Positions 4,828 to 58,139 of a DNA stretch of 64,000 bases are shown here, one piece after another. Below the pieces are notes generated by a model. The model saw only the letters and a program-made list of their open reading frames with translations. It made no database searches and was not told the origin of the DNA. Position 1 is the stretch's first letter; each line of letters begins with the position of its first letter. The stretch lies in IMG/VR virus record IMGVR_UViG_3300037264_001603, positions 1 to 64,000 of that record; one strand, 5' to 3'. Source of the DNA: a virus. The position numbers and the translations under genes are program-made.

Positions 4828-4841
4828 CCCGTAGAGGCGAT

Positions 4842-5180: not shown

Positions 5181-5254
5181 AAGCAGTTACAATAGGGGAA
5201 TTGGCTATACCCAAACGCGCGAAATTTTTTCACAAAGGCCAGACCTAAAGCTTG

Positions 5255-5283
5255 TTGACTTTCCAGGGTTTCTGCGGTATAAT
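5255..5283 (+). promoter_or_regulatory. sigma70-like promoter TTGACT-N17-TATAAT
   Basis: TTGACT at 5255-5260, a 17-bp spacer and a consensus TATAAT at 5278-5283. A 4-bp hairpin GAGT-CGAGA-ACTC (5288-5300) lies at the predicted transcript start. Drives the cupin gene at 5317. Confidence 0.8.
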
Positions 5284-5316
5284 TGAAGAGTCGAGAACTC
5301 ACAGGAAATGGAGACC

Positions 5317-5730: not shown

Positions 5731-5738
5731 GAGAGCGT

Positions 5739-6026
5739 ATGAACTTCTGGTCAATTTACCTTCCTGTCTTTGCTGCCTTAGTCAGTGCATTCGCTGTTAC
5801 AGAAGTGTTCCATCTCGGACTAGGGTACTATTTTCACAAGAAGCAGGAAAAGCTACGCAAGGAATTTGAAGAGAAGGTAGCTCGGGGTGAAATTGATCCC
5901 ATGCAAATGATGTTTGGTGGGATGGGGCCGCCGCCTGGAATGAGCTACAACCCGCTACCCACCGTAGAAGGTACCGAGAATGTCATAGTGCCAACTACGA
6001 AAGAAGGACATGGTCAGTACCTTTAA
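5739..6026 (+). CDS. single-pass membrane protein (95 aa)
   Basis: ATG 5739 follows AGGAG overlapping the previous stop. One N-terminal transmembrane helix (YLPVFAALVSAFAVTEVFHLGLGYYF) is followed by a charged coiled-coil segment and a Met/Gly/Pro-rich region (MMFGGMGPPPGM). Overlaps the glycosylase gene by 17 nt. Function unknown. Confidence 0.65.
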   Translation: MNFWSIYLPVFAALVSAFAVTEVFHLGLGYYFHKKQEKLRKEFEEKVARGEIDPMQMMFGGMGPPPGMSYNPLPTVEGTENVIVPTTKEGHGQYL

Positions 6027-20947: not shown

Positions 20948-20991
20948 GCAATTGTCTTATGATTACATCTGACAAGAACACACATCTTGTC
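20935..20991 (+). promoter_or_regulatory. promoter (TGGAGA-N17-TATGAT) with start-site hairpin
   Basis: TATGAT at 20958-20963 sits in GTCTTATGATT, as at 25062. The -35 TGGAGA (20935-20940) is weak (4 of 6). A perfect 7-bp hairpin GACAAGA (20971-20977) / TCTTGTC (20985-20991) begins where the transcript should start and ends six bases before the next SD. Confidence 0.6.
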
Positions 20992-21007
20992 AGCGGCGGA
21001 GGTGTCT

Positions 21008-22213
21008 ATGAAAGTGCTCCGAGGAGAGAGCGGCATTACCATTTTGTTCCGCCCAATGAAAACCGGATTGGTGGACATGCGCTATTTGGTAATGTGTGGC
21101 GCGGTAGACGAGTCCCCCGCGGAACGAGGGTTCTGCCACGCCTTAGAGCACATGGTGTTCGCTGGTACTGACAAGCGGTCATGGCTACAGATCAACAGAG
21201 ATTGGGAGAAGCTAGGAACCTCCTATAACGCCATAACCGCACAAGATCGCACCTATTACATCGCCACAACCCTGAGGCGAAATTGGAAAGAATGCTACGA
21301 AGTATTGGCCGACATGTTTTACAATTGCAAATTTCCAACGGAGCGCTGGGAAGACATTGAGAAGCCGGCTATCATTTCGGAGATCCTGGACAGCTTGGAC
21401 GATGAAACCTCCGTATTGGAAGAAGAACTCTACATGCATGGAATTGGTGACCGATACCACCCTATCATGGGAGACATTGAGACTATCAAGAACGCCTCTG
21501 TTTCTGACCTCACCAACTTTTATGACCGATACTATCGTGGTTCCAGTGTGTTGCTTTTTATCTCCGGGGACCTCACAGAAGAGGAAGTTCTGCAAGAAGT
21601 GAATAGATACGACCGACTCCGGCCTTCTTCTCCTATTCGCAGGCAGAGATTTGATTTCGAGTTCAACCACGAAGATCTAGATGTTATCGATCCAGGCATC
21701 AAGCAGTGCTACCTACAGGCCCTGCTGCCTCTAAATGTTCCACGCAAATATACTACTCGTACTGCCATAGGCGTGGGAGTCAATTGCCTTTCCCAATTCC
21801 TCTTTGAAGAACTCCGAGAGAAGCGAGGGTTGGTTTATGGTGCCGATGCCTCTTTGTACTGGGACATTCCTGGACGTATCTTTCTGCACCTCCAGACTGC
21901 GACCGATAAGAGTCTATTGGAGAAGACCGAAGCTGCTTTCTTGGAAGCCATTGCTAAGTTCCCGGAAGAAGGACTATCTGGTGAACGTATTCGTAACATG
22001 AAGCTTTTGGAAGAGCACGTGGTGACCAGTGATTCCGAAGATCTAAGCACTTCCGCCGATTGGATGTGGGATGCTTGGAAAGAAGATGTATTTGAAGATC
22101 CGTATAGCAACCACGCTAAGACGGTAGAGTCCCTGTCTGTCGATTCGATTAGGGAAACGACCCGCACCCACGTCAAGGGTGTTTACAAACTTGGAAGGTT
22201 GGTAGAAGACTAA
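21008..22213 (+). CDS. M16-family zinc peptidase (401 aa)
   Basis: The inverted zinc motif HxxEH is HALEH at 44-48, preceded by the usual GAVDESPAERGFCH. The third ligand lies in the downstream IISEILDSLDDET helix, and the R/Y substrate-binding pair appears as FEELREKRGLVYGADASLYW. ATG 21008 is chosen for GGAGG 5 nt upstream; an in-frame TTG at 20987 falls in the hairpin. Size fits a one-domain-pair M16B enzyme that may dimerise. Rare in phages; substrate unknown. Confidence 0.88.
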   Translation: MKVLRGESGITILFRPMKTGLVDMRYLVMCGAVDESPAERGFCHALEHMVFAGTDKRSWLQINRDWEKLGTSYNAITAQDRTYYIATTLRRNWKECYEVLADMFYNCKFPTERWEDIEKPAIISEILDSLDDETSVLEEELYMHGIGDRYHPIMGDIETIKNASVSDLTNFYDRYYRGSSVLLFISGDLTEEEVLQEVNRYDRLRPSSPIRRQRFDFEFNHEDLDVIDPGIKQCYLQALLPLNVPRKYTTRTAIGVGVNCLSQFLFEELREKRGLVYGADASLYWDIPGRIFLHLQTATDKSLLEKTEAAFLEAIAKFPEEGLSGERIRNMKLLEEHVVTSDSEDLSTSADWMWDAWKEDVFEDPYSNHAKTVESLSVDSIRETTRTHVKGVYKLGRLVED

Positions 22214-23202
22214 TGCGCGAAGCTCTTACTTTTGATGATGTGGCCCTTGTTCCTCGTTACAACAATGTTCAGAGCCGGACAGAGCCCGATCTGAGCACCT
22301 GGCTTACCAGAAACTTGAAGATTGGTATGCCTTTGGTTCCAGCTAACATGGATACGGTAATCGGACCCGAGTTAGCTCAAGTCATTGTGTCTAATGGTGG
22401 TATTCCCATTTTCCATCGCTTCACTAACCTGGAAACCCAGAAGAAGTGGGTCGAGGAGTTCCAAGGAAAGGTGGTCTTGTCCTGTGGGATTGGTAAAACA
22501 GATGAAGTCGCTAGGATTCTTGATCTCGGTGCTGTTGGCATTTGCTTTGATGTCGCCCATGGGCATTCCGAAAAGATGGTCAACTTGGTCGGATGGGTCA
22601 AAACTCATTATCCGAACGTGGAAGTTATCGCCGGAAACGTTTGTACAGCAAGGGCGTATCACGATCTTGTTAATGCAGGTGCAGATGCTGTTAAGGTTGG
22701 CATCGGTCCTGGTGCGGCTTGCACTACCCGAGTTGTCACAGGCTTTGGTGTTCCGCAGTTTACAGCTATCAAGGATTGCGCAGAAGAAGCACAACATTTC
22801 CGTGTTCCTGTCATTGCAGACGGCGGGATACGAACTTCAGCAGACATCGTCAAAGCACTGGCTGCTGGTGCCTCTACAGTAATGATGGGTAAGGTGTTTG
22901 CGCTAACAGACGAGAGCGCTGCAGAGAAGCTCAATGGTCGAGCCAAATACCGCGGACAGGCCAGTGAGGATTTCCAGAACGAGTACTATGGCGGCCTCAA
23001 AGAAAAGACCGTAGCAGAAGGTACTGATTTCTGGGCCCCGGTAACAGACAGTGCCCAAGCTGTCATTGATCAATTCCTGGGTGGTTTACGCAGCGGCATG
23101 ACCTATGCCGGTGCGCGAGACATCAAGGAACTACAGAGGAAGGCCGAATTCGTCAAAGTAACCGGATCCTACTCCGTCGAAAGTAACCCCAGGAGAGACT
23201 AA
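22213..23202 (+). CDS. IMP dehydrogenase / GMP reductase family protein (329 aa)
   Basis: [11 protein letters not shown] opens the barrel. [20 protein letters not shown] carries the catalytic Cys170, followed by [20 protein letters not shown] and YRGQASEDF, the flap region. The CBS domains of bacterial IMPDH are absent, so it could be a CBS-less IMPDH or a GMP reductase. The VPQ ending of the Cys loop and the C-terminal [13 protein letters not shown] lean towards IMPDH. Acts in guanine nucleotide supply. Coupled by TAATG to the peptidase before it. Confidence 0.88.
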
Positions 23203-23960
23203 TGGCAGTAAAAATCACCACGGAACTACTCGAACGCGAAAAAGAAGTTCGAGGGTTCATTGAAACCTACGCAGATCTATTCGATCTGGATCCTAACCTC
23301 ATTCGGGGACTGATCACCCAAGAGTCTCGCTTTGTAGCGGAAGCTACCAGCCCAACTGGCTGTTTCGGTTACGGGCAGTTCTCCCATATTGGGGCTAAAC
23401 AAGTTCAGAACATTGCGGCTATGACCGATAAGGCAGCTGATCTGGTTTCCTTTACCAAGCAGAACGCGTCTGATCCCGACGACGGCATCAAGGCGGTCTG
23501 TGCAACCCTCTGGTGGCTCTTCAACAAGAAGTATCATCAGATTACGGATAAGAAGATACAACTGGAAGCAGTTCTCACCTTCTACAATGCAGGAGGCCGG
23601 CCAGCCGCTTTGGTAGTTCAGCACGGCGGTCACGAGAATGCGGTAGAGTTTATCAAGGCCCTGCCCAGGAATCTTCGCAGCCAAGGTGCCACCTACGCAC
23701 CAGAAGTAGCCCAGTGGTTTATCGCTTGGCATGAGCACATGTCCGCCGCGGCCGTCGCAGCCCGGCCCACTCCTGCAACTCCGGTCACGAGGCCCGTCAA
23801 TCCGTTTGACGAGAGGACCCGTGGACTTGATGTGCGCTACAAGGCACTCATCGAAGCACTTCGTTTGATGGACGAGGGCGACGACACCGTGGACATGCTC
23901 ATCAACGTGCGAGATGGACTTACTGAAGTAACAATTATCTTTCCCGGAGAATTAAACTAG
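23202..23960 (+). CDS. lytic transglycosylase-like peptidoglycan hydrolase (252 aa)
   Basis: LIRGLITQESRF supplies the catalytic Glu of the SLT/lysozyme-like fold, followed by SPTGCFGYGQFS (GxxQ region) and TFYNAGGRPA (the AYN/NAG motif). There is no signal peptide or membrane helix. It could be the endolysin, or a virion-associated enzyme. The last 50 residues (ALRLMDEGDDTVDMLINV) are a separate small domain. Coupled by TAATG to the IMPDH gene. Confidence 0.82.
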   Translation: MAVKITTELLEREKEVRGFIETYADLFDLDPNLIRGLITQESRFVAEATSPTGCFGYGQFSHIGAKQVQNIAAMTDKAADLVSFTKQNASDPDDGIKAVCATLWWLFNKKYHQITDKKIQLEAVLTFYNAGGRPAALVVQHGGHENAVEFIKALPRNLRSQGATYAPEVAQWFIAWHEHMSAAAVAARPTPATPVTRPVNPFDERTRGLDVRYKALIEALRLMDEGDDTVDMLINVRDGLTEVTIIFPGELN

Positions 23961-23961
23961 T

Positions 23962-24735
23962 ATGATTGATGGGCAGGATACGGTGGTCAAGACTCCCGAA
24001 CAAATAGAGAAGATGAGAATTTCTGCGGCTTTACTTTCGCGATGCCTAGATATACTGGTGGGACTCGCGAAGCCAGGTAAGTCAGGAAAGGAACTAGACG
24101 CGGTTGCGGAGGAATTTATCCGCGACCACGGCGCAGTTCCAGCTTTCAAGGATTATGGGCCAGCAACCCACCCCTTTCCTTCTTCGATCTGCTTTTCCCG
24201 CAATAGTGTCGTGGTTCACGGCATTCCTACGGAAACGGAAATTATTGAAGAAGGAGATCTCATAACCATTGATTGCGGTTTGAGTTTGGATGGGTGGTTT
24301 GCAGATGCGGCCCGCTTGTTCGGTGTGGGTCAGATCACCGACGAGGACAGAGACATCATTGCGTGGAGTGAGAAGGCTATCGGCGCAGGAATTGACGCGT
24401 GTGTTGTGGGGAACAAACTGGGGGATGTATGTTACGCGATCCAATGCTCTATTGGTCGCAGCCCGTACTACAACATCACGCAATTCTGCGGTCATGCCAT
24501 CGGGCAACGAATGCACGAGGATCCGCAGGTTCCTAACTGCGGATTCAAGGGCAAAGGATTGGAGTTACAGCCAGGAATGGTTTTCTGTTTAGAGCCCATG
24601 CTCAAGAAAACCGACGTTAGTCTGGGGATTCTCCCCGACAAATGGACGATCGTAACTCGGGATGGCACCCGGGCAACACATATAGAACACATGGTCTTAG
24701 TTACCGAAACTAAGCCCGAAATTCTCACTGCATAA
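23962..24735 (+). CDS. map: type I methionine aminopeptidase (257 aa)
   Basis: Removes the initiator Met from deformylated proteins. All five metal ligands are present: D104 and D115 (ITIDCGLSLDGWFAD), H178 (CGHAIGQRMHE), E211 (FCLEPML) and E242 (THIEHMVLVTE), plus the catalytic H86 (VVVHGIP). The length matches the bacterial enzyme. Together with the deformylase at 8077 the phage carries both steps of N-terminal maturation. Confidence 0.95.
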   Translation: MIDGQDTVVKTPEQIEKMRISAALLSRCLDILVGLAKPGKSGKELDAVAEEFIRDHGAVPAFKDYGPATHPFPSSICFSRNSVVVHGIPTETEIIEEGDLITIDCGLSLDGWFADAARLFGVGQITDEDRDIIAWSEKAIGAGIDACVVGNKLGDVCYAIQCSIGRSPYYNITQFCGHAIGQRMHEDPQVPNCGFKGKGLELQPGMVFCLEPMLKKTDVSLGILPDKWTIVTRDGTRATHIEHMVLVTETKPEILTA

Positions 24736-24780
24736 ACGCAGTTTCTGTCGTATAATTCTCAAGTGCGGATAAGTGTCCGC
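24728..24780 (+). promoter_or_regulatory. TATAAT promoter with start-site hairpin for the cold-shock gene
   Basis: A consensus TATAAT at 24751-24756 lies in CGTATAATTC, identical to 471 and 37437. The -35 (CTGCAT, 24728-24733) is poor. Hairpin GCGGA (24765-24769) / TCCGC (24776-24780) lies at the predicted transcript start. A 50-nt leader then precedes the start codon, a length that could allow RNA-level control. Confidence 0.65.
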
Positions 24781-24813
24781 GACGACAGCACAGAATTTCC
24801 TAGGAGTTATACA

Positions 24814-25038
24814 ATGGTTAATGGAGTAGTAAAGTGGTTTGATGCTAAGAAGGGATACGGTTTCGTCGTTTCCCCTGAGGTTGATGGTGATGTATTTGTT
24901 CACTACACCAAGATCAAGATGGAAGGCTTCAAGAAGCTGGAGACTGGCGAGAAGGTCTCCTTTGACCTCATTCGCACCCCCGCTGGGAAGCCTCAGGCAG
25001 ATAACGTTGTTCGAAACGGAGTAGAAACACAAGACTAG
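24814..25038 (+). CDS. cold-shock-domain protein (74 aa)
   Basis: Opens VNGVVKWFDAKKGYGFV (RNP1 = KGYGFV) and continues DVFVHYTKI (RNP2). The length is normal for a CspA-type protein that binds single-stranded RNA and melts structure. ATG 24814 has TAGGAG upstream. Has its own promoter and a structured leader. May help translate the many hairpin-bearing messages seen here, which is speculation. Confidence 0.92.
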   Translation: MVNGVVKWFDAKKGYGFVVSPEVDGDVFVHYTKIKMEGFKKLETGEKVSFDLIRTPAGKPQADNVVRNGVETQD

Positions 25039-25042
25039 GGAT

Positions 25043-25071
25043 TTGACAAAAAAGCCCAGATGTCTTATGAT
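25043..25071 (+). promoter_or_regulatory. sigma70-like promoter TTGACA-N17-TATGAT
   Basis: Perfect TTGACA at 25043-25048, 17-bp spacer and TATGAT at 25066-25071, in GTCTTATGATT. Same architecture as 80-108. The predicted start is near 25078, just before GGGAGG, giving a very short leader. Confidence 0.8.
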
Positions 25072-25092
25072 TGCTGTGGGAGGATTAAAACA

Positions 25093-25365
25093 GTGGGCAA
25101 TACAACTTACGTGGATTTAGAGATCCTTGCCGATCTCGGAGACGAGTATTTGGTACGCGTAGGCAAGGACGGGTTGAATGCTCTGGTGGAGTTTGATGCT
25201 ACCCTGGTTGTTCGCCATTGGGATGGGGAAAAGCCGGTGGTGCTTGAGCCGTATGGAGATACCGCGGTTCGTACCAGAGAAGATGCCAGAAGTACCAATA
25301 ACTTGGAGAATTTGCCAAACGTAGACGTGGACGAGCTACTCACGTGGCTCGTGACCCAGGAGTGA
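25093..25365 (+). CDS. hypothetical protein (90 aa)
   Basis: The start is set at GTG 25093, 9 nt after GGAGG (25079-25083). An upstream in-frame ATG at 25060 overlaps the promoter -10 and cannot be on the transcript. Acidic alpha-beta protein (NTTYVDLEILADLGDEYLVRVG; FDATLVVRHWDGEKPVV). Function unknown. Followed by a 130-nt structured gap. Confidence 0.65.
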   Translation: MGNTTYVDLEILADLGDEYLVRVGKDGLNALVEFDATLVVRHWDGEKPVVLEPYGDTAVRTREDARSTNNLENLPNVDVDELLTWLVTQE

Positions 25366-25397
25366 TTCGAGTATTAGGTTCTCCCTCCAGGGTATGT

Positions 25398-25446
25398 GGG
25401 GAATCTTCCCCCGGGCCTTCAGTGCCCTACCCGACCGCGTCTGCGG
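25398..25446 (+). other. three tandem hairpins in an intergenic leader
   Basis: GGGGA/TCCCC (25398-25411), GGGC/GCCC (25413-25427) and CCGC/GCGG (25435-25446) follow one another with 1-7 nt between. None has a T-tract. They occupy most of the 25366-25496 gap ahead of a gene with its own terminator. May be a structured leader or small RNA. Confidence 0.5.
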
Positions 25447-25496
25447 ATACAATGGCCTAAGAACCTAAAAATACATTGTACGGAGGGAAATACACA

Positions 25497-25772
25497 ATGG
25501 GTGTACTAAAGCACGACGGAACTGTAGTCAATCTTGACGCGCTTGATTCCGTGTTCGATACCAATGCCAATGGCTTTGGTCCTGAGACCACGAGCAACCC
25601 TGACATGGTAGCAGGCGTCAAGGCGAATATGGCAGGCATGCCTTGGACTGGTGGATACAGCCTACCTACGGGTAATCGCTCTTCCAGCACTGGGCTTCCG
25701 CATGTTAGCCTCGGTCGAAGTGGCAAGCTCCCAGCGGGCAACGCTACTCTGGCTGGCGTAACGACTCGATAA
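25497..25772 (+). CDS. hypothetical, probably abundant small protein (91 aa)
   Basis: ATG 25497 with GGAGG at 25482-25486. Low-complexity, Gly/Ser/Thr/Asn-rich and without charge clusters (GYSLPTGNRSSSTGLPHVSLG), like minor virion or decoration proteins. A structured leader in front and a double terminator behind make it a single-gene unit, typical of genes expressed at a distinct level. Confidence 0.65.
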   Translation: MGVLKHDGTVVNLDALDSVFDTNANGFGPETTSNPDMVAGVKANMAGMPWTGGYSLPTGNRSSSTGLPHVSLGRSGKLPAGNATLAGVTTR

Positions 25773-25795
25773 GCGCAGTCAACTTCATTACGGCT

Positions 25796-25862
25796 GGCCA
25801 AGGGCAATCCTTGGCCCGCCCCAAGATGCGGGTGTCCCCCCAAAGGGGGGCATCCTTTCTTA
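25796..25862 (+). terminator. double hairpin terminator
   Basis: First hairpin: GGCCAAGG (25796-25803) / CCTTGGCC (25809-25816), 5-nt loop. Second: CCCCCC (25836-25841) / GGGGGG (25845-25850), 3-nt loop, followed by CATCCTTTCTT. The second is intrinsic-terminator-like, though the T-tract is interrupted by C residues. Confidence 0.75.
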
Positions 25863-25901
25863 CATCGTCCGAGGATTTGAATCCTACAGGAGGTGTATTC
25901 T

Positions 25902-26102
25902 ATGGAAGATCTAGTACTAGGCGCGCTTGGACTAGTCTCCGGTGCAATTCACTGGGGCCTTTCTAACGCACTACCCCTAGCAGTCGGTGCAGTACTTGGT
26001 GGCCCTCTCGGTCACGCCGCTCTTGGAATGGTTGGCGACGTCCTTAGCAGAACTAAGGAAGTAGTTGACTCCATCGGCTCTGCCATTTCTGGCAAGAAGT
26101 AG
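25902..26102 (+). CDS. small glycine-rich hydrophobic protein (66 aa)
   Basis: ATG 25902 is 8 nt after a perfect AGGAGG; an in-frame GTG at 25893 overlaps that SD. Residues 5-45 are almost entirely hydrophobic with spaced Gly (LGALGLVSGAIHWGLSNALPLAVGAVLGG), then a short amphipathic Lys tail (DSIGSAISGKK). It could be a holin, a membrane-inserting virion peptide or a bacteriocin-like toxin. Framed by terminators on both sides. Confidence 0.65.
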   Translation: MEDLVLGALGLVSGAIHWGLSNALPLAVGAVLGGPLGHAALGMVGDVLSRTKEVVDSIGSAISGKK

Positions 26103-26117
26103 TTCACCAGTATTTGG

Positions 26118-26146
26118 AAAGGGGCCTGGTACTACCAGTCTCCTTT
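26118..26146 (+). terminator. terminator-like hairpin
   Basis: AAAGGGG (26118-26124) pairs with CTCCTTT (26140-26146), and CTGGT (26126-26130) with ACCAG (26134-26138), around a 3-nt ACT loop; one mismatch and one wobble. No run of T follows. It separates the small hydrophobic gene from the dUTPase pair. Confidence 0.5.
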
Positions 26147-26162
26147 CTCCAGAGGTTTTCTA

Positions 26163-26603
26163 ATGAAAATGAGCTTTGCCAATTTGAACAAAGATGGGCT
26201 CCATGGAGCTACTGTAGACGGAAACACGCTATTTTTTCAGTGTGTGAAGCCTTTGATTATCCAGCCTGCGGAAATCCAAAAAGTTCATGTTGGAATAGAA
26301 CTTAGAATTCCCGAAGGATTTGTTCTCAATGTCAGTACTCACCCCAAGCTTGCAGATAAAGCAGGGGAGGTCTTTCCGGCCCTTACAGCTGTAGATCATA
26401 CCCATGTGGGTGAAGTAGTGATTCCAGTGCGCAACAACGGGCGCAATCCTTTGAGCCTAATGGTTGGAATGGTATTCGCACGTGGACATTTGGTTCGCGT
26501 CGAGGAGCTAGAATTCACGGAGGAAGCCCCGACGGTGGTTCCTACCGACCTACCTCGCACCCAACCGCAACGGAAGAATCCGTTCAACTTTGAGGTAAAG
26601 TAA
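26163..26603 (+). CDS. dUTPase-fold paralogue lacking catalytic motifs (146 aa)
   Basis: Aligns with the adjacent dUTPase over its core: [26 protein letters not shown] matches [26 protein letters not shown], and [27 protein letters not shown] matches the [23 protein letters not shown] region. Motif II (PRSGLA) is replaced by HPKLAD, the motif III Asp is displaced and the P-loop-like motif V is absent. It is thus probably not an enzyme. It may be a structural partner or a regulator. TAATG-coupled to the intact copy. Confidence 0.75.
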
Positions 26604-27034
26604 TGAAGTTCGTTTTGAAGCGTCTTCACGAAGATGCAATTGTTCCGACTTATCAAACCCCCGGATCAGCTGGTGCAGACCTCTGCTCCGTAGAGGATGT
26701 TGAGATTCCTGAGGGACAAACCCGGGTGGTAAGTACTGGACTTGCTATAGAAATTCCTGCTGGATTCGAGATACAGATTCGTCCCCGAAGCGGCTTGGCG
26801 GCCAAGCACTCGGTCACTGTTCTCAATACACCAGGGACCATCGACAGCGACTATCGAGGTGAGGTAAAAGTCATCCTCATCAACCACGGAACCCGGCCTT
26901 TTGCAATTACCAAGGGTGATAGAATCGCACAGATGGTTATTGGCCGCGTATTTCAAGCGGGCTTCGAAGAGGCCCTCGAACTGAATCAGACCCTCCGCGG
27001 CGCGGGGGGTTTCGGTTCCACAGGAAGGAATTAG
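26603..27034 (+). CDS. dut: dUTP diphosphatase (143 aa)
   Basis: Hydrolyses dUTP to dUMP and pyrophosphate, feeding thymidylate synthase and keeping uracil out of DNA. All five trimeric dUTPase motifs are intact: AGADL (24-28), PRSGLA (61-66), [10 protein letters not shown] (78-87), GDRIAQMV, and [10 protein letters not shown] at the C-terminus. Coupled to the degenerate paralogue by TAATG. Confidence 0.96.
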
Positions 27035-27035
27035 C

Positions 27036-27272
27036 ATGGAAGCTCAGTTACCTATTAACGTTGGTTGTGAAGTTCAAGTTGCAGCTCAAGATGGTATCGC
27101 TACCGTAACCGTGCCCCCGGAATTACGTCTCACGGAAAGGCTAGTCACCTTCTTGAATGCTGCTTTACAGGCTCGTGATCTCACCCTTAAGCATTGGACT
27201 ATTACCACCCCCGAACAGGAAAAGGAATTGGAGAGCCTACCCAATGTCAAGATGGAGCAAACCAAAGAATAA
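27036..27272 (+). CDS. hypothetical protein (78 aa)
   Basis: ATG one base after the dUTPase stop, behind an AGGAA SD. N-terminal beta strands (VGCEVQVAAQDGIATVTVP), then a helix and an acidic end. Overlaps the patatin gene by 29 nt. Function unknown. Confidence 0.65.
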   Translation: MEAQLPINVGCEVQVAAQDGIATVTVPPELRLTERLVTFLNAALQARDLTLKHWTITTPEQEKELESLPNVKMEQTKE

Positions 27273-28089
27273 TGAGATCGATTTGGTACTTTCGTCTTCC
27301 GGAGTACGCGTTCCTTGTTTTATTGGAGGGTTAACTGCCCTCGAAGAACGAGGATACAAGATTCACAGAATTGCCGGCAGTTCCGGAGGGGCCATAATCG
27401 CTGCAGCATACGCACTCGGCATGACCACTGCTGAGATGAGGGAACTTTCACTCGAAATTCCCTATCAAAGCTTCCGGGACTTCAAACTTCGAAACCTCCT
27501 GAGCCTGAGCAACCCTAGTGTTTATACAGGGCAGGAACTAGACGCCTACTATCAACAAATTTTCGGCGATGCTCTAATGCGGGACATGAAACTCGACTGC
27601 CGAATTTCAGTCGTTACAATCATCGGCCGCAAACGCATCCTTATCGATCGAGAGTCTCACCCAGACCTTCCCGTTTGGAAGGCAGTGAGAATGTCCTCGA
27701 CTATCCCCTTCATTTTCCCTTGGTGCGATTTGGACGGGCAGCCCGTCACTGATGGTGGCCTCGTCACCGGCATAAACGATATCTTTCCTAATAACCCGCG
27801 ACCAGTAATCTGTTTGCGGCCCAGAGCAGATCACGTCCTGAAAAAGGCTATCCAGGATGTCAAGGCCTCCAAGTTGTTCATTTGGAATTACCTCAAGATC
27901 ATTGCCGAGTACTTCTTGGATGCGGTAGATAATCAACACGTACCAGAGGTTGAATGGAACCGCACCATTGTCATTCCGACCTTCGACATTGGTGGTTTCA
28001 ACTTTGACATTACCCCGGAAGAGGTAAAGCAACTCATCCAGTACGGGTACAATGCCGTCATGACATCAGAGCTGTCCTTGTCTAAATAG
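27244..28089 (+). CDS. patatin-like phospholipase (281 aa)
   Basis: The catalytic dyad is complete: GSSGG at 45-49 (nucleophile Ser47) and DGG at 170-172. The oxyanion segment is LSSSGVRVPCFIGGL, close to the usual GGGxRG. ATG 27244 follows GGAGAG. No signal peptide or membrane helix, so the enzyme acts in the cytoplasm or after release. Patatin enzymes hydrolyse membrane phospholipids. A role in lysis, host membrane remodelling or virion entry is possible. Ends in a terminator. Confidence 0.87.
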   Translation: MSRWSKPKNNEIDLVLSSSGVRVPCFIGGLTALEERGYKIHRIAGSSGGAIIAAAYALGMTTAEMRELSLEIPYQSFRDFKLRNLLSLSNPSVYTGQELDAYYQQIFGDALMRDMKLDCRISVVTIIGRKRILIDRESHPDLPVWKAVRMSSTIPFIFPWCDLDGQPVTDGGLVTGINDIFPNNPRPVICLRPRADHVLKKAIQDVKASKLFIWNYLKIIAEYFLDAVDNQHVPEVEWNRTIVIPTFDIGGFNFDITPEEVKQLIQYGYNAVMTSELSLSK

Positions 28090-38754: not shown

Positions 38755-38997
38755 ATGAAGACCTTTTGGGCAGCAAGCCTGTTATCCGTACTTTTGGCCT
38801 CGGCGGCTTTAGCCGGCCAACCCGACCCCAACGAGCAGCGGCAGCAGCAAATGGCCCCGTCGGTAGTGGTAATTCCACAACCTGCCCCGGACAAAGATGA
38901 TGGCGGCAACACTTTGATTACAGTGGCCATTGTTGGTGCGGTGGGCGCAGTAGGTGCGGCCTACGTTTCTTCCCGGAGTCGAAAGAAGGGCGAGTAA
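38755..38997 (+). CDS. exported small membrane protein (80 aa)
   Basis: Signal peptide (MKTFWAASLLSVLLASAALAG, likely cleavage after ALA), a Gln/Pro-rich linker and a C-terminal membrane helix with a GxxxG-rich core (ITVAIVGAVGAVGAAYV) and basic anchor. Possible spanin-like or envelope protein. TAATG-coupled to the oxidoreductase gene. Confidence 0.65.
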   Translation: MKTFWAASLLSVLLASAALAGQPDPNEQRQQQMAPSVVVIPQPAPDKDDGGNTLITVAIVGAVGAVGAAYVSSRSRKKGE

Positions 38998-40166
38998 TGT
39001 CCGTTTCGTATTGGCAGGACACTGGTGGCCCCAGAAAACGGGCTTACTCCCATGTAGTGATTATTGGGGCCGGTTTAGCTGGTCTATCTACCGCCTACTG
39101 GTTGCACAAGTTAGACCCTACGCTAAGCATAGCCATTGTAGACAAGGGCACCGTTGGGTACGGAGCATCAGGGCGCAATGCAGGTTTCATTACCTGCGGT
39201 TCTACAGAACACTTCTCCCGTATGGCATCTGCGTATGGGGAGAGCAAGGCAGAAGAGATTTGGAAGTTTACCGAATACAACCACCGCTTGATTGTCGAAA
39301 CCTTTGGGCTAGAGAGATTGCAGTCGGAATGCGAATACCGAAATTTGGGAAGTTGGACTCTGGCGGCTACGGAACACGAGATCCAGGTAATCGGTGAGAC
39401 TGTAAAGCATCTTCAAGGCAAGGGTGTGAATGTTCAATGGTACGACAAAAAGATCGTAGATAACTGGCTGCATTGTGAAGGGTTTCACGGCGGTGCCAAA
39501 TACGCAGACGACGGAGAAATTCATCCGGTAAAGTATCTGAACCTACTGCAGCAAGAATCTGGCGCAACGCTTTACACCAACCAGGAAGTCTTTGGTTTCG
39601 AAAGCGACGGGGATGCCGTACTTGTAAAAACCAATCAATTGGATCTCCGTGCCGAGGCTGTGGTCCTTTGTACTAATGCTTGGAGTGGGCAACTTTCCTC
39701 CTGGTTCCAAGACAAGATAGCACCTACACGCGGGCAGATTATCGTAACTGAGCCTGTCGCGCCGTTTCTAGAGCCTGCCTATTGCAGCTTTGTTCTAGAC
39801 TACTTCCGACAACTCGTTGATGGAAGAGTTTTGATTGGCGGCTTTCGCAATGCTGACATTGAACGCGAAGTAGGTTTCTCGGACGAAATCAATCCTACCA
39901 TCGACGAGAAGTTGGAAGGATTTTTGCACGATCATTTTCCTCGACTTCGTAATGCTCGCATCGACTATCGATGGAGCGGAGTCATGGGGTTCTCTGCAGA
40001 TGGTTATCCCATGGTCGGGGCCTTGAACGAAGACCCGCGGATCTTCTACAATGTGGGGTTTACCGCACACGGATTAGGGTTTACTTTTGCAACCGGGGAG
40101 CTGACAGCCAAGCTTATTCTTGAAGGACAAGATCCCGGAATTTTCAGTGGGAGAAGGTTCTCATGA
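38997..40166 (+). CDS. FAD-dependent amino acid/amine oxidoreductase (389 aa)
   Basis: VVIIGAGLAGLSTAYWL (GxGxxG at 24-29) binds FAD; GTVGYGASGRNAGFI, PTRGQIIVTEPV and the C-terminal GFTAHGLGFTFATGEL are hallmarks of the DadA/PuuB/glycine-oxidase group. Length is complete. Likely oxidises an amine or amino acid with O2 as acceptor. Such a gene is unusual in phages and may alter host polyamine or amino acid pools. Confidence 0.88.
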   Translation: MSVSYWQDTGGPRKRAYSHVVIIGAGLAGLSTAYWLHKLDPTLSIAIVDKGTVGYGASGRNAGFITCGSTEHFSRMASAYGESKAEEIWKFTEYNHRLIVETFGLERLQSECEYRNLGSWTLAATEHEIQVIGETVKHLQGKGVNVQWYDKKIVDNWLHCEGFHGGAKYADDGEIHPVKYLNLLQQESGATLYTNQEVFGFESDGDAVLVKTNQLDLRAEAVVLCTNAWSGQLSSWFQDKIAPTRGQIIVTEPVAPFLEPAYCSFVLDYFRQLVDGRVLIGGFRNADIEREVGFSDEINPTIDEKLEGFLHDHFPRLRNARIDYRWSGVMGFSADGYPMVGALNEDPRIFYNVGFTAHGLGFTFATGELTAKLILEGQDPGIFSGRRFS

Positions 40167-44008: not shown

Positions 44009-44827
44009 GTGAAGCAGTACTTAGACTTGCTTGAGGATTGTTTTTACGGAGAAGAGAAGGACGACAGGACAGGTGTAGGTACCACGGGTGTTTTCGGGAG
44101 ACAGCTCCGCTTCAATCTCCAAGATGGATTCCCTTTGCTCACGACCAAGAAGGTATTCACCAAAGCCATCATTCACGAACTGCTTTGGTTTATCACCGGC
44201 GAAACCAACATCCAATACCTGCAAGAGAATGGCGTTACCATTTGGGACGAGTGGGCAGATGCAGATGGAAACCTCGGACCTGTGTACGGACATCAGTGGC
44301 GGCATTGGCCTACCTACAAGGAAGTTGAGGATGGTTTGCTCATTCCAGGACCAGAGCTTGATCAACTTGATCAGGTAGTCAAGGATCTGAGAAAGAACCC
44401 CAGCTCCCGTAGGCACATCGTTACTGCGTGGAACCCAGCCGACGTACCAAATATGGCACTTCCGCCTTGTCACCTTCTGTACCAGTTCTATGCCGCCAAT
44501 GGTCGATTGTCGTGTCAGATGTACCAAAGAAGTTGTGACGTTTTCCTGGGAGTACCATTTAACATTGCGAGCTACGCCCTGTTGACGATGATGGTAGCGC
44601 AGGTAACTGGATTGGTACCCAACGAGTTCATTCACACCTTTGGCGACGTCCACCTGTACAAGAATCATCGTGAGCAAGCAATCGAGCAGTTGTCCCGCGA
44701 GCCCCGACCGCTTCCCAAGATGATCATCAATCCCGATGTGAAAGACATCGACGATTTCAAGTTCTCGGATTTCCAGTTGGTGGGGTACAATCCTCACCCA
44801 GCCATCAAGGCGGAGGTAGCGGTCTAA
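44009..44827 (+). CDS. thyA: thymidylate synthase (272 aa)
   Basis: Methylates dUMP to dTMP using methylene-tetrahydrofolate. [11 protein letters not shown], the [10 protein letters not shown] segment, catalytic Cys154 in [13 protein letters not shown] and [20 protein letters not shown] are intact. GTG start behind GGGGAG. Overlaps the DHFR gene by one base, matching the enzymes' coupled folate cycle. Uses dUMP supplied by the dUTPase at 26603. Confidence 0.97.
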
Positions 44828-45474
44828 TGCTTTTGTCCCTTATCGTGGCGTATGCTAAGGATAGTGCTGGTGCGCGGGTGATTGGTTTGAAGAACCAAAT
44901 GCCTTGGCACTTTCCTCATGATTTGGAGCGCTTTCGAGAGCATACGTTGGATTGTGCAATCATTATGGGGCGCAAAACATTCGAGTCTATTGGGCGCGTT
45001 CTACCTCGGCGTGAGAACATTATCCTTACGCGGCAGCTTGACTATAAGGTCCCGGGAGCTTATATCTTCCATGATCTAGAAGCCGCTTTGGACTTTGCAG
45101 GCACCCGGAACAGCGAGGCCTTCATTATTGGGGGACAAGAGCTTTATGAGCAAACCCTAGAGCGGGCGGACCGGCTGTATTTGACTTCCTTCAAGATTTC
45201 TGGGATCGAAGGCGACTCCTTCTTCCCGAACTATGAGCTAAACAAATACAAGATGATTCACCACGAGAAGTCAGGCATTAGTGGGGATTGTTTCCGCATC
45301 CTGGAAAGAATTCGCTATACTGCCTCGCAGCAGGCAGGGTCCGAAGCCACTGCGTATTCCTCTATTACAGGAATGTCCACCGCAGCAGCAGCGGCCGGTC
45401 CTGGTCAAGACGAAGTAGAGGACGACGAGGAGGATGCAGTTCTTGTGCCTTGGGAAGTCGGGTATGTTCTCTAA
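44827..45474 (+). CDS. folA: dihydrofolate reductase with C-terminal extension (215 aa)
   Basis: Regenerates tetrahydrofolate after ThyA. LIVAYAKDSAGARVIGLKNQMPWHFPHDL, CAIIMGRKTFESIG, NIILTRQ and EAFIIGGQELYEQTL are canonical DHFR motifs. The usual domain ends near residue 165; a further 50 residues are Ala-rich then acidic (GQDEVEDDEEDAVLVPW). The extension is not part of the DHFR fold. TAATG coupling both sides. Confidence 0.95.
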   Translation: MLLSLIVAYAKDSAGARVIGLKNQMPWHFPHDLERFREHTLDCAIIMGRKTFESIGRVLPRRENIILTRQLDYKVPGAYIFHDLEAALDFAGTRNSEAFIIGGQELYEQTLERADRLYLTSFKISGIEGDSFFPNYELNKYKMIHHEKSGISGDCFRILERIRYTASQQAGSEATAYSSITGMSTAAAAAGPGQDEVEDDEEDAVLVPWEVGYVL

Positions 45475-47670: not shown

Positions 47671-47699
47671 TTGCGAAAATCCAAAAAACCATGTATAAT
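47671..47699 (+). promoter_or_regulatory. sigma70-like promoter TTGCGA-N17-TATAAT
   Basis: TTGCGA at 47671-47676, 17-bp spacer, TATAAT at 47694-47699 in GTATAATTG. The start of transcription would lie about 20 nt before the NusG-like start codon. Confidence 0.78.
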
Positions 47700-47725
47700 T
47701 GGAACAGGTTGAGAAGGAGCCTATA

Positions 47726-48268
47726 ATGTCTGATCAGAAGAAGCAATGGCACTCTTGGGTGATCAAGCGGAACCGCTTGGACAACGTAGTTTCCTACATC
47801 AAGGAGAACTGCCCCGAGATCGACAAGTTTTTCTACCCCTTTATCAAGAAGGAGTACCAAACCAAGAAGGGCGTTAACCGTATCAAGGACATGCCCCTTT
47901 ACGAGGGATACCTATTCTTGAGGTACCACAGCCATCCGCAGGTTTTCCACAAGCTTAGCCAATACCCCCAAGTCACTACTTACTGCGGGCCCGTTTCTGA
48001 ACTTGAAATCGATAAGATGCAGGCCGCACAAGGGAAACTGATTTCGGAGTTGAAAGCTAGCCGTTTCAAGCAGGGCGACACGGTCATCCTCAAGGATGGC
48101 CCGTTCAAGGGTTGGGAGGCCAAAGTGGTCTCCCTGAGCGGGACGTCTGTAAAGGTGAAGATTGACGCTGTAATCCTTGGGTCTTCAAATCACGAAGTGG
48201 TTTATTCCGAGGATCTGCTGGAAAAGAAGACTGAACTACAAAACTCCGAAGTGCAGGACATCCTCTAA
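47726..48268 (+). CDS. NusG/RfaH-like transcription elongation factor (180 aa)
   Basis: NGN domain from WHSWVIKRNRLDNVVSYI through LYEGYLFLRYHSHPQVFHKL, then a KOW motif KQGDTVILKDGPFKGWEAKV. ATG 47726 has AAGGAGC upstream; a longer in-frame start falls within the promoter. The KOW region would contact ribosomal S10 or NusA, the NGN domain RNA polymerase. A phage copy may make polymerase read through terminators in this gene-dense, hairpin-rich genome. Own promoter gives separate timing. Confidence 0.85.
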   Translation: MSDQKKQWHSWVIKRNRLDNVVSYIKENCPEIDKFFYPFIKKEYQTKKGVNRIKDMPLYEGYLFLRYHSHPQVFHKLSQYPQVTTYCGPVSELEIDKMQAAQGKLISELKASRFKQGDTVILKDGPFKGWEAKVVSLSGTSVKVKIDAVILGSSNHEVVYSEDLLEKKTELQNSEVQDIL

Positions 48269-53195: not shown

Positions 53196-55484
53196 ATGAC
53201 TACAAAAGACGTAGGCAAGAACGCCGCAAAGAGCCTACTCGAAGAAGTTCGAGAGCTTGCTCTAGTTGTAGGCGAAGATTGTCCAGAAGGGCATCGCAAA
53301 GATCCTGGCAGCGGAAGATGCTTGCCAATGGGCGGACAAGACCACACACGATTCACGCGAAGCGTCAATAATGATGACGGCCCACAGTGGCGCGGAGAGG
53401 TCGATAAGACCAATACCACCTTTGCTTCCCAGAAAGAAGTGGCCCTTGACGCAGATGATATGGACGAACCACAAAGTTGTGCTGCCGGCACGACTTTTTC
53501 TTTTGTGCAGAGAAAATGCGTTTCCCTAGAGGAAGCCGAAGCGGAAGATAACGGAGACCTTGCGTTCGTAGAGGAAGAGGTAGCGGTGCAGCCTGAAGGC
53601 CGTCGCGATACTCCTAATCACGCATGCCCGGCCAACCAGTTCTTCGATTTCAAGCGCCGCGAGTGCATCCCTCTAAACAAGGATACTGTATTGGCATCTG
53701 AGGATGTGGACGATGAGTTCAAGAAGGTGGTAGCTACTTACTTGTCGGGACGACTAGGAGTAACCTCCCCTGATCCTATTGATGGCCACAAGCATTTGGT
53801 TACAGTAGACACCGAAGGGAGTGGTAAGTCTTCCGTTTCTTCTAGCTATCATGGGGCGGAGTCTTACTATCATTCCCATGATGTAGAAGGTTATCTAGTT
53901 CAGGATTACAAGAAAGGCGACTACCTCTCTCAGCACTTTGGACACGTTATTCCCAAGGAAATGTGGGAGCACGAGGACCACAGTTCAGACGCGGTTCCGG
54001 GCACGGCTGTGCCAGTTGCCGCCGAAGAAGCCAAGGAACTGCGCTCCAAGCAGCGAAACGCTCTTCCGGACAGCTCCTTTGGAGTTCCCGGTAAGAGGAA
54101 GTTCCCGCTAAACGACTGCGGGCATGTGCGCAATGCCATGGCTCGTTTCAATCAGGCCAAGGGCCTGACTTCCGGCGAGAAGGCGACTCTCCGCCGAAAG
54201 ATCCTATCCCGGGCCAACGCCTGTGGAATCAAAGTCACCAGCTTCGGTAAGGCAAATACTGCAGAGGAGTTTGCCGCCGTCGTACAGGAGCTAATAGCAA
54301 TGGAAACTCCAACCGAGACCCCTGTAGAGACTACAGAAACCGCTGAACGAATGAAGACATATGAGGCCGCAGCCCCGTACGCGGGACCTTGTCCTCCCGG
54401 AATGGTGTGGGATAAGATGGCCAAGAAGTGCTCCAAGGTTAGAGGTTTTGTAGAGGAACTGGCCAACCATTCTGAAATCGTTAGCAAGCAGCCAGAAGGC
54501 CGCCGAGACCCCGTTGGTTTCCAGTGCCCCGCTGGCAGCTTCTTTGACTTTACGGATCGCAAGTGTGTTCCTCTTGATCCTTCCAAGAAGCCTGGTACTA
54601 CAACTACTAAGGCCAATGAGGAAGAGGATGCCGCAAAGAACAACCTCTCCCCGGGTCCCGCAGGTCAGCCTGCTCGTCTTCCCCAGGATTGCCCAGCCGG
54701 TACTATTTGGGATGGCGATCTACGAACTTGCAAGCCTTTAGACAGCAGCAAGAAGACCAAGTCCGCTGAGGAAGAGGCTGCATTGCCGGACTTCCTGAAA
54801 AAGATGATGGAGAAGAAAAAGAACAAGAAGGCCAAGTCTGAAGAGGAAGAGTCCCAGAGTACTTCTAACGGCCCCGGTAATAAGGGTGGCCCCGGTTGCC
54901 CTGAAGGCCAGTTCATGAATCCTGTTACTAAGAAGTGCATGCCTCGCAAGGGTGCCTTCAAGGGGAAGAGTGAGACTGAGACCGCAGGACGCGAAGGCCT
55001 AACGACTGAAGTTCCGGGTAAGGTAAAGCTTCCCCAGGATTGCCCAGATGGTACCATTTGGGATGGCAACCGCCGCACCTGCACCCCACTAGATCCTAGC
55101 GACAAGAACCGCCCTAGCGGTAGTTCTGGTCCGATGAATCCCAAGAGTGTGGCTTCTCTATCCACCGCACAGTTGATTCAGGCGCTGGATGAGATTCTCA
55201 AGGAGCAGGGTGCCAAGGAGAAGAGTAGGGTTGTAGCCAAGTCTCTTCCCAACGCCGCGTTTCCTCCCTCCCTCGTCAGCGCTGCTCACCGCGCTTTGAT
55301 GCATCACAATCCAGACGTTACAGATCCCTATGATAACGCATCGGTTGATGTGGCCCGCCTGCGCAATGCTCTTTACCGCTCAGGCAAGGTAGAAGGTTTC
55401 TCGGATAAGGCTGTTGAGGATGGAATTGAACATCTTCTCTTCCACGCCCGCGAGATCGTAGAGGCCCGAACAAAAAAAGACTAA
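53196..55484 (+). CDS. two-cysteine-repeat protein with DUF6582-like region (762 aa, zero-frame product)
   Basis: Eight copies of a module C-x-x-G-x(7-9)-C-x-P (for example CPAGTIWDGDLRTCKPLD, CPAGSFFDFTDRKCVPLD) are spaced along the protein, separated by acidic or Lys-rich linkers. Between modules 3 and 4, FGVPGKRKFPLNDCGHVRNAM...GEKATLRRKILSRANACG resembles the DUF6582 region seen in phage head proteins. It ends at TAA 55482 right after a slippery A-run. A -1 shift there would add two more modules (see the next entry). Between portal and protease genes, so a head protein. Confidence 0.8.
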   Translation: MTTKDVGKNAAKSLLEEVRELALVVGEDCPEGHRKDPGSGRCLPMGGQDHTRFTRSVNNDDGPQWRGEVDKTNTTFASQKEVALDADDMDEPQSCAAGTTFSFVQRKCVSLEEAEAEDNGDLAFVEEEVAVQPEGRRDTPNHACPANQFFDFKRRECIPLNKDTVLASEDVDDEFKKVVATYLSGRLGVTSPDPIDGHKHLVTVDTEGSGKSSVSSSYHGAESYYHSHDVEGYLVQDYKKGDYLSQHFGHVIPKEMWEHEDHSSDAVPGTAVPVAAEEAKELRSKQRNALPDSSFGVPGKRKFPLNDCGHVRNAMARFNQAKGLTSGEKATLRRKILSRANACGIKVTSFGKANTAEEFAAVVQELIAMETPTETPVETTETAERMKTYEAAAPYAGPCPPGMVWDKMAKKCSKVRGFVEELANHSEIVSKQPEGRRDPVGFQCPAGSFFDFTDRKCVPLDPSKKPGTTTTKANEEEDAAKNNLSPGPAGQPARLPQDCPAGTIWDGDLRTCKPLDSSKKTKSAEEEAALPDFLKKMMEKKKNKKAKSEEEESQSTSNGPGNKGGPGCPEGQFMNPVTKKCMPRKGAFKGKSETETAGREGLTTEVPGKVKLPQDCPDGTIWDGNRRTCTPLDPSDKNRPSGSSGPMNPKSVASLSTAQLIQALDEILKEQGAKEKSRVVAKSLPNAAFPPSLVSAAHRALMHHNPDVTDPYDNASVDVARLRNALYRSGKVEGFSDKAVEDGIEHLLFHAREIVEARTKKD

Positions 55485-55536
55485 GCGGATGGATTGATGA
55501 AGGTCAGATTACCAACCCCGCTGAGTTTCATCCGCT
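55460..55536 (+). promoter_or_regulatory. candidate programmed -1 frameshift signal
   Basis: SD-like AGAGG (55460-55464), slippery heptamer A AAA AAA in the zero frame (55472-55478), GACTA spacer, then an 8-bp stem AGCGGATG (55484-55491) / CATCCGCT (55529-55536). The zero-frame stop overlaps the spacer/stem start. This is the layout of the dnaX frameshift signal. Confidence 0.65.
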
Positions 55537-55933
55537 GTGCCAACCCCAGGAAGTGTTTGATCCCAAGTCCGGCTCTTGCATCCCCGTCACTAATGTGAAG
55601 GGAGCTGATCCAGCGGGTACGCTGGAATGTCCGCCGGGCTACGTCCTGGACGAAAGTTTGGGCATGTGTCGTCCGGACGATCCGGTGAACACGGCGTCTA
55701 TGTCTTCAGGAGATAACTTTGTTCGATTGGAAGATATTCCTAAAGAATTGAGACCCGACCCTAAGAAGGTCAATAAGAAGAAAGAGACAGCTGCCCCCTT
55801 CAGACCTGACGCTAAAATGGAACGCTGCATTCGTGATGTAAAAGCCAATTTGGGTAACAAGAATCCCAAATTCAAAGGACAATCTGTTAAGAGTGCAGCG
55901 ATAGCAATTTGTAGATCGCGCCTCAAAGAATAG
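55478..55933 (+). CDS. frameshift extension of the cysteine-repeat protein (151 aa)
   Basis: The -1 frame is open from the A-run to TAG 55931 with no credible start: the first GTG (55553) has AGGA almost touching it. It continues the same architecture, with modules LCQPQEVFDPKSGSCIPV and ECPPGYVLDESLGMCRPDD, then a basic tail (CIRDVKANLGNKNPKFKG). A shifted product would be 912 aa. An assembly error in the A-run is the alternative. Confidence 0.65.
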   Translation, partial: RLSGWIDEGQITNPAEFHPLCQPQEVFDPKSGSCIPVTNVKGADPAGTLECPPGYVLDESLGMCRPDDPVNTASMSSGDNFVRLEDIPKELRPDPKKVNKKKETAAPFRPDAKMERCIRDVKANLGNKNPKFKGQSVKSAAIAICRSRLKE

Positions 55934-56445: not shown

Positions 56446-57822
56446 ATGATGACAACAGAGAACAAGGTCAGAGTCTATGCTCCGATTCAAGTCCAGCAGG
56501 AAGTGGAGCTGGCAGCAGCGGAGAAAGCGGCAGTTCTAACTTTTCCAGACGAAAAACAGGGCGATCTTCAGTATATTCGCTCCATTCTAGTATCTGCCGG
56601 TACTAACAAGAACGGTGCCCATTTCTTGCCTTCCGAGATGATGCGGGCACACAATACCATCGTGCATAAGGCTATTGATATTGAGCACGAAGAGGATAAG
56701 GTTATTGGGCATATCTACGAATGTGCTTTCCTCTACAAGGATGGTTCCCAGTTTGATCCGACCAAGGTAATGGCGGAGTTCCAGGAAACCTCCAAGAATC
56801 CTGATGATCTTGATATGGACATTGCTGTAGCGGGTGTGATACACAAGATGCGGTTCCCACAGTTGGCCGAAGAGATTTTCAAGGGCGACTGGAAGGTCAG
56901 CATGGAATGCTACTTCAAGGATTTCGATATCAAGATTGGCAATCAGATCATTACTCGGTCCGAAGCGCAGGCTTTGGGCTATAACCCCGACGACCTCATC
57001 GGGGGCTTTGTAAAGGTAGTCGCTGGTACGAAGGCGCTAGGCAAGCACTTCGTTGCCCGAGTACTTCGAAACATTACCTTCAGTGGTATGGGTATCGTCA
57101 AGAACCCAGCCAACCCCCACTCCATCATTATGGAAACTGCTGCTCATCGTGAGCAACTGGAAAAGGGAGAGCAGGTAGTTGATTTGGAGCACATCGATAA
57201 CCTCCGAGGTCATAAAATCGAACTCTCTTCCGCAAAGGAAGATGAGCCAAAGGAGAAGGCTGCTGCCGTAAAGGTGGTCTCCGAAGATGGAACTATGCAA
57301 GCAGAAGAGCAAATCTACATCGAATTAGACAACGAAACCGGCGGCATCAAGCGCGTACTTACCGTTGGCGGTAAGGAAGACGCAGGTCTTCGCTGGTCTG
57401 GCCCTGGTACTGGTGGGCCTGGCAGCATTACCTCTTATCCTGATGAGCTTTGTAAGAGCTTCAAGAAGAGAGTAACCAAGTTCAATGCATTGGATCAGTC
57501 CGAGGCACAGGTAGTTCATGAGCACTGGTGTGCTCTGTTCGAAGAGTCCTGCCCGGTTATTGGTGCTACGGCCAAGGCCCCGGAATGTCTACGCAACGTT
57601 CGTAACCGAACTACGCGGGACGAGGCTGATAACACTCTGACCAAGACGGTACGGGACCATGTTTCCAAGGGACCGGCCAACACTTTCACTACGACCCTGC
57701 ACCAGCAATCTGCTTCTACCGGAGATCGCAAGGAGCAGGTGTCTCGTATCCGTACAGAAGCAGAAGCACTTAGAAATTCTCTTCGATCTTTTGTTGCGGC
57801 CGAAAAAAAAACTTTAGAATAA
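56446..57822 (+). CDS. prohead maturation protease (458 aa, zero-frame product)
   Basis: RSILVSAGTNKNGAHFLPSEMM, HKAIDIEHEEDKVIGHIYEC and FSGMGIVKNPANPHSIIM are typical of large-phage prohead proteases that cleave scaffold and capsid during maturation. ATG 56446 or 56449 behind AGGAGG. The C-terminal 180 residues form an added domain. The frame ends at TAA 57820 soon after a run of nine A; a -1 product would continue to 58139. Confidence 0.78.
   Translation: MMTTENKVRVYAPIQVQQEVELAAAEKAAVLTFPDEKQGDLQYIRSILVSAGTNKNGAHFLPSEMMRAHNTIVHKAIDIEHEEDKVIGHIYECAFLYKDGSQFDPTKVMAEFQETSKNPDDLDMDIAVAGVIHKMRFPQLAEEIFKGDWKVSMECYFKDFDIKIGNQIITRSEAQALGYNPDDLIGGFVKVVAGTKALGKHFVARVLRNITFSGMGIVKNPANPHSIIMETAAHREQLEKGEQVVDLEHIDNLRGHKIELSSAKEDEPKEKAAAVKVVSEDGTMQAEEQIYIELDNETGGIKRVLTVGGKEDAGLRWSGPGTGGPGSITSYPDELCKSFKKRVTKFNALDQSEAQVVHEHWCALFEESCPVIGATAKAPECLRNVRNRTTRDEADNTLTKTVRDHVSKGPANTFTTTLHQQSASTGDRKEQVSRIRTEAEALRNSLRSFVAAEKKTLE
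57803..57811 (+). promoter_or_regulatory. A9 run, candidate transcriptional or ribosomal slippage site
   Basis: Nine consecutive A near the end of the protease gene, reading GAA AAA AAA ACT. Runs of this length cause RNA polymerase slippage in bacteria, and the Thermus dnaX gene uses A9. Only a weak 5-bp hairpin (GAGCC/GGCTT, 57828-57843) follows, so polymerase slippage seems more likely than a ribosome shift. Confidence 0.55.
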
Positions 57823-58139
57823 TCAGTGAGCCAATTGAGGCTTCCTCAGTCATAGCTTCGAACAAGGTAGTAAGATACAAGAGTAAGGCGGATGCATTCA
57901 AGACCGCTCACGCCTTAGAGCCCTCCGCAGAGAGGGAGAAGGTGGAAGGTTTCGTTCTTTTCGTTGGAGCCGGTCCAGACGTACTAGAGGCCGGTACCGA
58001 TCGCGAAGCTGCGATTGAGAGGGCCGTGGAAATTCTCAATGAGAATGACACGGTCGTTTTCCTATCGAAACTTCAATCCAAATTTGGCCAAGTATACGTA
58101 ACTAAAGATCAGCTGATGCTAGTAAGGAAATCAGAATAA
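57810..58139 (+). CDS. -1-frame extension of the prohead protease (109 aa)
   Basis: The frame is open from the A-run for 44 codons before any start codon (GTG 57942, with AGGGAG upstream as a fallback start). The sequence looks coding throughout: VIASNKVVRYKSKADAFKTA, VEGFVLFVGAGPDVLEAG and a helix IERAVEILNENDTVVFL. A fused product would be 564 aa. If slippage does not occur, a 65-aa protein from GTG 57942 is the alternative. Confidence 0.6.
   Translation, partial: NFRIISEPIEASSVIASNKVVRYKSKADAFKTAHALEPSAEREKVEGFVLFVGAGPDVLEAGTDREAAIERAVEILNENDTVVFLSKLQSKFGQVYVTKDQLMLVRKSE

Follow-up and report, generated by a model that had tools for sequence, protein, structure and literature searches.

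The DNA analysed here, which we call the window, comprises the first 64,000 nucleotides of the uncultivated virus record IMGVR_UViG_3300037264_001603. It carries a block of head genes in which a gene for a cysteine-module protein sits between the portal gene (phrog_2739) and a putative prohead protease gene, from which it is separated by two small ORFs. Downstream lie genes for a decoration-like protein (Phage_cement_2, below the cut-off) and the major head protein (phrog_2522) and, judging from position, a probable scaffold gene. Other parts of the window encode a NusG-like protein slightly upstream of the terminase gene (47699–48268; Pfam NusG 7.9e-5, KOW), an actin-like protein (16416–17846; Pfam Volactin 2e-64, a family known from haloarchaea) and a set of cellular-type enzymes (20987–28089, 38997–40166 and 44827–45474: M16 peptidase, IMPDH, M24 peptidase, patatin-like lipase, FAD oxidoreductase and DHFR).

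Features of the two junctions discussed in the text (coordinates within the window)
Feature	Position	Strand	Details and basis
Zero-frame ORF, cysteine-module protein	53196..55484	+	762 aa; Pfam matches, module search, alignment A5 (19 loci)
SD-like AGAGG	55460..55464	+	7 nt upstream of heptamer; not conserved
Slippery heptamer A_AAA_AAA (P/A-site Lys-Lys)	55472..55478	+	this form or G_GGA_AAA in 19/19 distinct loci
-1 frame extension	55478..55933	+	151 aa; alignment A1, substitution rates, low-confidence AlphaFold model
Zero-frame stop TAA	55482..55484	+	one codon past heptamer
Proposed stem, 5′ arm	55484..55493	+	5 nt past heptamer; covariation
Proposed stem, 3′ arm	55527..55536	+	overlaps conserved -1 frame HPxC codons; covariation
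Putative prohead protease ORF, zero frame	56446..57822	+	458 aa; identity from gene order only
A9 run with in-frame A_AAA_AAA (57804–57810)	57803..57811	+	9 nt before stop TAA 57820–57822
-1 extension of putative protease	57810..58139	+	109 codons from slip point; stop TAA 58137–58139

The zero-frame cysteine-module protein contains eight modules of the CPxG...C.P type, a histidine-rich stretch, a DUF6582 region (Pfam, 1.1e-7) and a helical C-terminal domain. Its cysteine modules match Pfam CBM_14 only partially, and a full CBM_14 (peritrophin-A) chitin-binding domain was rejected: although the protein as a whole scores above the cut-off of Pfam (1e-16), only 19 of the 53 positions are covered in its best stretch, and each module has two cysteines. 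The gene ends ...CGA ACA AAA AAA GAC TAA, and both the heptamer in zero-frame phase and the stop that follows it are where an earlier note on this DNA had placed them. From 55430 the -1 frame stays open as far as its TAG stop (55931–55933) and, as that note had also claimed, the two-cysteine modules go on within it, two more of them preceding a C-terminal helical segment (ERCI...AIAICRS). A fusion through ...RTKK-RLSGWIDEGQ... would be 761 + 151 = 912 aa long. AlphaFold models of both parts are of low confidence (pLDDT 54 for the zero-frame protein and 65 for the extension); a fold search of the PDB with the extension model gave no significant match and Pfam only partial CBM_14 for the extension, so that neither search points to an Ig-like domain there.

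Related loci were collected by a terminase search (48 viral loci) and, in addition, by searches with the -1 extension and the putative protease. Nineteen distinct loci span the junction, namely the window (W) and 18 uncultivated phage loci, with the near-identical pairs L004/L005 and L027/L033 counted once; they come from many metagenomes, and the relatives are divergent. Every one of these loci has the homologous extension in the -1 frame, never in frame with the upstream gene and never with a credible start, and from about ten codons past the shift the loci share a conserved GQITNP.EFHP.C.PEE.FDPKSGSCIP (alignment A1). The extension evolves with a pN/pS of 0.15–0.38. Could it be an independently initiated gene, or be translated by termination–reinitiation? 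The window does hold an in-frame GTG (55553), its earliest possible -1 frame start, and there is overlap between the -1 frame and the zero-frame stop. However, that GTG is within a conserved cysteine module, in most loci the first starts past the stop vary in position and come only after conserved coding sequence of the extension, and no credible SD–start pair was seen at the candidate starts. There is an inserted stretch in L024, L058 and L062, where 75 codons before the first conserved cysteine module are under purifying selection (pN 0.03–0.04, pS 0.30–0.37); in L058 the -1 frame is without ATG, GTG or TTG for 395 nt past the stop. Purifying selection thus acts, on the substitution rates, upstream of any possible start codon. 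The lack of a credible start noted earlier in the window holds in the relatives, none of which has a downstream frame with a credible start and SD, and we regard a separate gene as extremely improbable.

The heptamer is present in all 19 loci, and its distance to the zero-frame stop is exactly 3 nt in every one (heptamer, one codon, stop). It takes two forms: A_AAA_AAA in 11 loci (W, L004, L010, L019, L024, L045, L048, L050, L058, L059 and L062) and G_GGA_AAA in eight (L012, L027, L034, L035, L038, L056, L066 and L068). On the tree of the zero-frame putative protease, which has modest support, the two types require as few as one change; the loci therefore do not represent 19 independent origins, and the two forms, both well-known slippery motifs, may have been exchanged in a single switch rather than in many. 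The signal exceeds what chance would give: when both strands of the 77,320-base record were scanned for ORFs of 100 aa or more, an in-frame XXXYYYZ within 12 codons of the stop occurred in only five of 143, and only two of these five have a -1 extension of more than 31 codons, namely the cysteine-module gene and the putative protease gene.

The two heptamer types also bear on whether the junction is simply a sequencing or assembly error, in which the true A-run would be one base longer and the frame single and continuous. A homopolymer of seven A does lie at the junction, and a one-base miscount would give such a pattern; the earlier note had itself named a run of six or eight A as what would overturn its reading. 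A-type loci have A7–A8 at the site, but G-type loci have only four to six A, which argues against homopolymer misreading, and the GGGAAAA of these eight loci, containing no long homopolymer, excludes an A-run miscount as a general explanation. Moreover, many metagenomes contributed to the 19 distinct loci that share the -1 relation, and error would produce neither a conserved zero-frame stop nor the covarying stem described below, so that its probability seems close to negligible.

Downstream of the heptamer, the 5-nt spacer and the perfect 8-bp stem (55484–55491/55529–55536) described earlier are confirmed, and the stem can be extended to 10 bp. Bases directly past the zero-frame stop pair with the HPxC codons of the -1 frame, and this pairing recurs in differing sequences: the arms are AGCGGATGG/CATCCGCT in W, L004, L045 and L050, GCGGGTGG/CCACCCGC in L068, GCACTGAGGGT/ATCCTCAGTGC in L038, L056 and L066, and GGCGCTG.GGGT/ACCC.CAGTGCC in L012. 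The covariation rests on a register aligned by hand around the structure, towards which the pairing percentages therefore lean; in this register 84.5% of cells are paired, vs 31–50% when the arms are slid by 1–3 columns, and four pairs are altered on both sides. When arms were exchanged between loci, the native combination gave the better pairing in 87 of 105 comparisons, a result that none of 20000 permutations equalled, and for 11 of 16 loci the arm duplex ranked within the top ~2% when set against synonymous recodings. We tested this specific arm pairing because the folding energy of the whole region is not significant in W-type loci, where it is not below that of synonymous recodings; judged only by folding energy, the stem is likewise unremarkable within the window (z -1.56), its support coming from covariation, and an Rfam search gave no match. 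Synonymous change over the stem-loop is nearly absent, as an RNA element lying within the coding sequence would lead one to expect: between W and L045 or L050 there are 0–1 differences in 24 codons (pS 0.06 and 0.00), vs a pS of 0.45 and 0.43 over the whole extension. The conservation in relatives that the earlier note had proposed as a check is thus found throughout for the heptamer and in most loci for the stem, which is weak in L027, L034, L035 and L059, displaced in L048, and was not detected at the equivalent place in the insertion group (L024, L058 and L062), whose members may use other structures instead. A stimulatory structure a few nucleotides past the heptamer is common in the X_XXY_YYZ class, where it is not obligatory.

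The stem and the heptamer types together weigh on a further alternative, transcriptional slippage on the A-run, by which an extra A in some transcripts would lead into the -1 frame. The A7–A8 of the A-type loci would suit such slippage, as would the example of the putative protease gene, where the run is A9–A10, no stem is conserved and transcriptional slippage is quite plausible. At the cysteine-module site, however, the G-type GGGAAAA with its four to six A argues against it, as does a covarying stem, which would act on the ribosome, and we consider it highly unlikely there.

The AGAGG noted earlier as an SD-like element is present upstream of the heptamer, but it is neither unusual within the gene nor conserved; pairing to the anti-SD upstream of the heptamer is within the gene's background range in most loci, and AGAGG is probably not a required element. 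This affects the description of the signal as dnaX-type. In Escherichia coli dnaX (tau/gamma), an A-rich slippery site is followed by a stem, an internal SD stimulates the shift, and the shift gives the shorter product. The cysteine-module gene resembles dnaX in its A-rich slippery site and stem, and the label holds only for these two parts, because the SD is not conserved and the shift gives a longer product (by ~150 aa in the window).

Taken across the 19 loci, the frame relation, heptamer, stem, change of heptamer type, covariation and purifying selection all support the earlier proposal that a programmed -1 frameshift extends the cysteine-repeat protein. On this comparative evidence, the extension is conserved as coding sequence and is entered from the upstream frame, through a slippery site that a covarying stem follows in most loci; programmed -1 ribosomal frameshifting at the end of the cysteine-module gene is by far the best explanation and very probably the right one. 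We count against it that the slipperiness of Lys-tRNA varies between bacteria. Under programmed frameshifting, most ribosomes would terminate at the TAA to give the 762-aa protein, while a fraction would pause at A_AAA_AAA, aided by the stem that starts 5 nt downstream; the two tRNA-Lys would then slip back one base, and translation would run on in the -1 frame to 55931. The product would be a minor form of ~912 aa, with two more cysteine modules and the C-terminal helical segment. The ribosome itself would do the slipping and the two forms would be made in some ratio; both would presumably be head components, and their ratio would matter either to assembly or to the display of a payload at the C-terminus.

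The second recoded gene, the putative prohead protease gene, was found by the genome scan, its slip site having gone unreported in the earlier note. In the window it ends GAA AAA AAA ACT TTA GAA TAA. In-frame A_AAA_AAA inside a run of at least nine A, 6–9 nt before the zero-frame stop, occurs in 20 of the 20 loci examined, all of which also have a conserved ~108-aa domain in the -1 frame past the run (alignment A7). This extension has a pN/pS of 0.06–0.38, and its first possible start lies 14–72 codons into the conserved domain; it gave no significant or convincing family in Pfam or PHROG. The putative protease itself matched no protease family in Pfam, PHROGs or PDB sequences. Among the loci compared there is no conserved structure downstream of the A-run, and no strong SD was seen upstream of it. 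Runs of A9–A10 are a known kind of transcriptional slippage site. The gene is, on this conservation, very likely recoded in the same direction as the cysteine-module gene; with no conserved stem, either ribosomal or transcriptional slippage could be responsible.

Both recoded extensions appear to be specific to one clade. Annotated phages match the zero-frame cysteine-module protein only at the DUF6582 region and give distant matches to the terminase, head protein and putative protease. In L040, L041 and L047 the putative protease gene directly follows the portal gene, without a cysteine-module gene, and more distant relatives of the putative protease are without both the -1 domain and the A-run; the extensions are therefore, as far as the searched collections show, confined to this clade, which includes contigs of 200–300 kb. 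As to the host, a lytic transglycosylase domain and a DnaX-like clamp-loader protein (11248–12222; DNA_pol3_delta2 1.2e-30), both encoded in the window, suggest a bacterium. The contig of L068 was binned in a Candidatus Altiarchaeales MAG, an archaeal assignment that may be a binning error.

The end of the first extension varies within the clade. In L034 the frameshift extension runs on into a Dps/ferritin-like domain (16108–16986; Pfam Ferritin 1.2e-21), in L012, L048, L056 and L068 a separate Dps ORF begins at a point that ranges from 4 nt ahead of the end of the -1 stop to 8 nt past it, and in L008 two Dps-like domains lie within the zero-frame protein (4826–5806). Such fusions and neighbours suggest a Dps-carrying head protein. 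From these and from gene order we infer a head-associated protein with a minor longer form that bears an added module or payload. It seems likely, moreover, that the head operon is doubly recoded, with two conserved -1 sites, in the cysteine-module and putative maturation protease genes, that each add a clade-specific C-terminal domain to a fraction of the copies, the first site serving in evolution as a docking point for swappable payloads including a sub-stoichiometric, virion-carried Dps (ferritin-like) domain.

Frameshifting in phage coat proteins is already known. Head or coat proteins extended by frameshifting occur in Lactobacillus phage A2, T3/T7 and Listeria A118/A500, with a +1 shift in PSA, and tail chaperone frameshifts occur in many phages (PMC5009743). 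The location outside a tail chaperone stressed in the earlier note is thus unusual, but the head proteins of A2, T3/T7, A118 and PSA mean that it is not unprecedented (PMC5009743). There, frameshifting acts on coat or major tail proteins and frequently adds an Ig-like domain, whereas here the protein extended is a distinct one with cysteine modules, encoded between portal and putative protease, and what it gains is further cysteine modules plus an end that can be swapped (helical segment or Dps domain). Lambda gpG/gpGT, which makes two products in a set ratio, shares with the present system a slippery site near the zero-frame stop and a longer -1 product (PMC5009743), and both G_GGA_AAN and A_AAA_AAN heptamers are used in its class (PMC3483164). 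The lambda genes are, however, tail genes, whereas the cysteine-module gene belongs to the head block, where it follows the portal gene and precedes those for the putative protease and the major head protein; a G/GT tail-assembly chaperone, whose gene would sit among the tail genes immediately before the tape measure, was rejected on this position. Bacillus phage G, a distant relative, has an endolysin gene, gp22/gp23, among the genes that separate portal from major head protein, annotated as a two-piece join with the second piece in the -1 frame (NC_023719; L171:5866–7535). It has no detectable homology to either recoded gene and was rejected as a homologous frameshift. In the open-licence literature we found no recoding described either for a prohead protease or for any gene located between the portal and protease genes, and the cysteine-module gene as a recoded gene, as well as the paired arrangement, appear to be new.

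Discussion of frameshifting in dsDNA phages has centred mostly on tail chaperones and a small number of coat proteins; in the present case it appears fixed throughout one clade. Both extensions would be missed or split by standard gene callers. The clade offers natural variants in the form of two heptamer types, several stem forms and one Dps-payload locus, and the system predicts, in a testable way, stoichiometry in head assembly.
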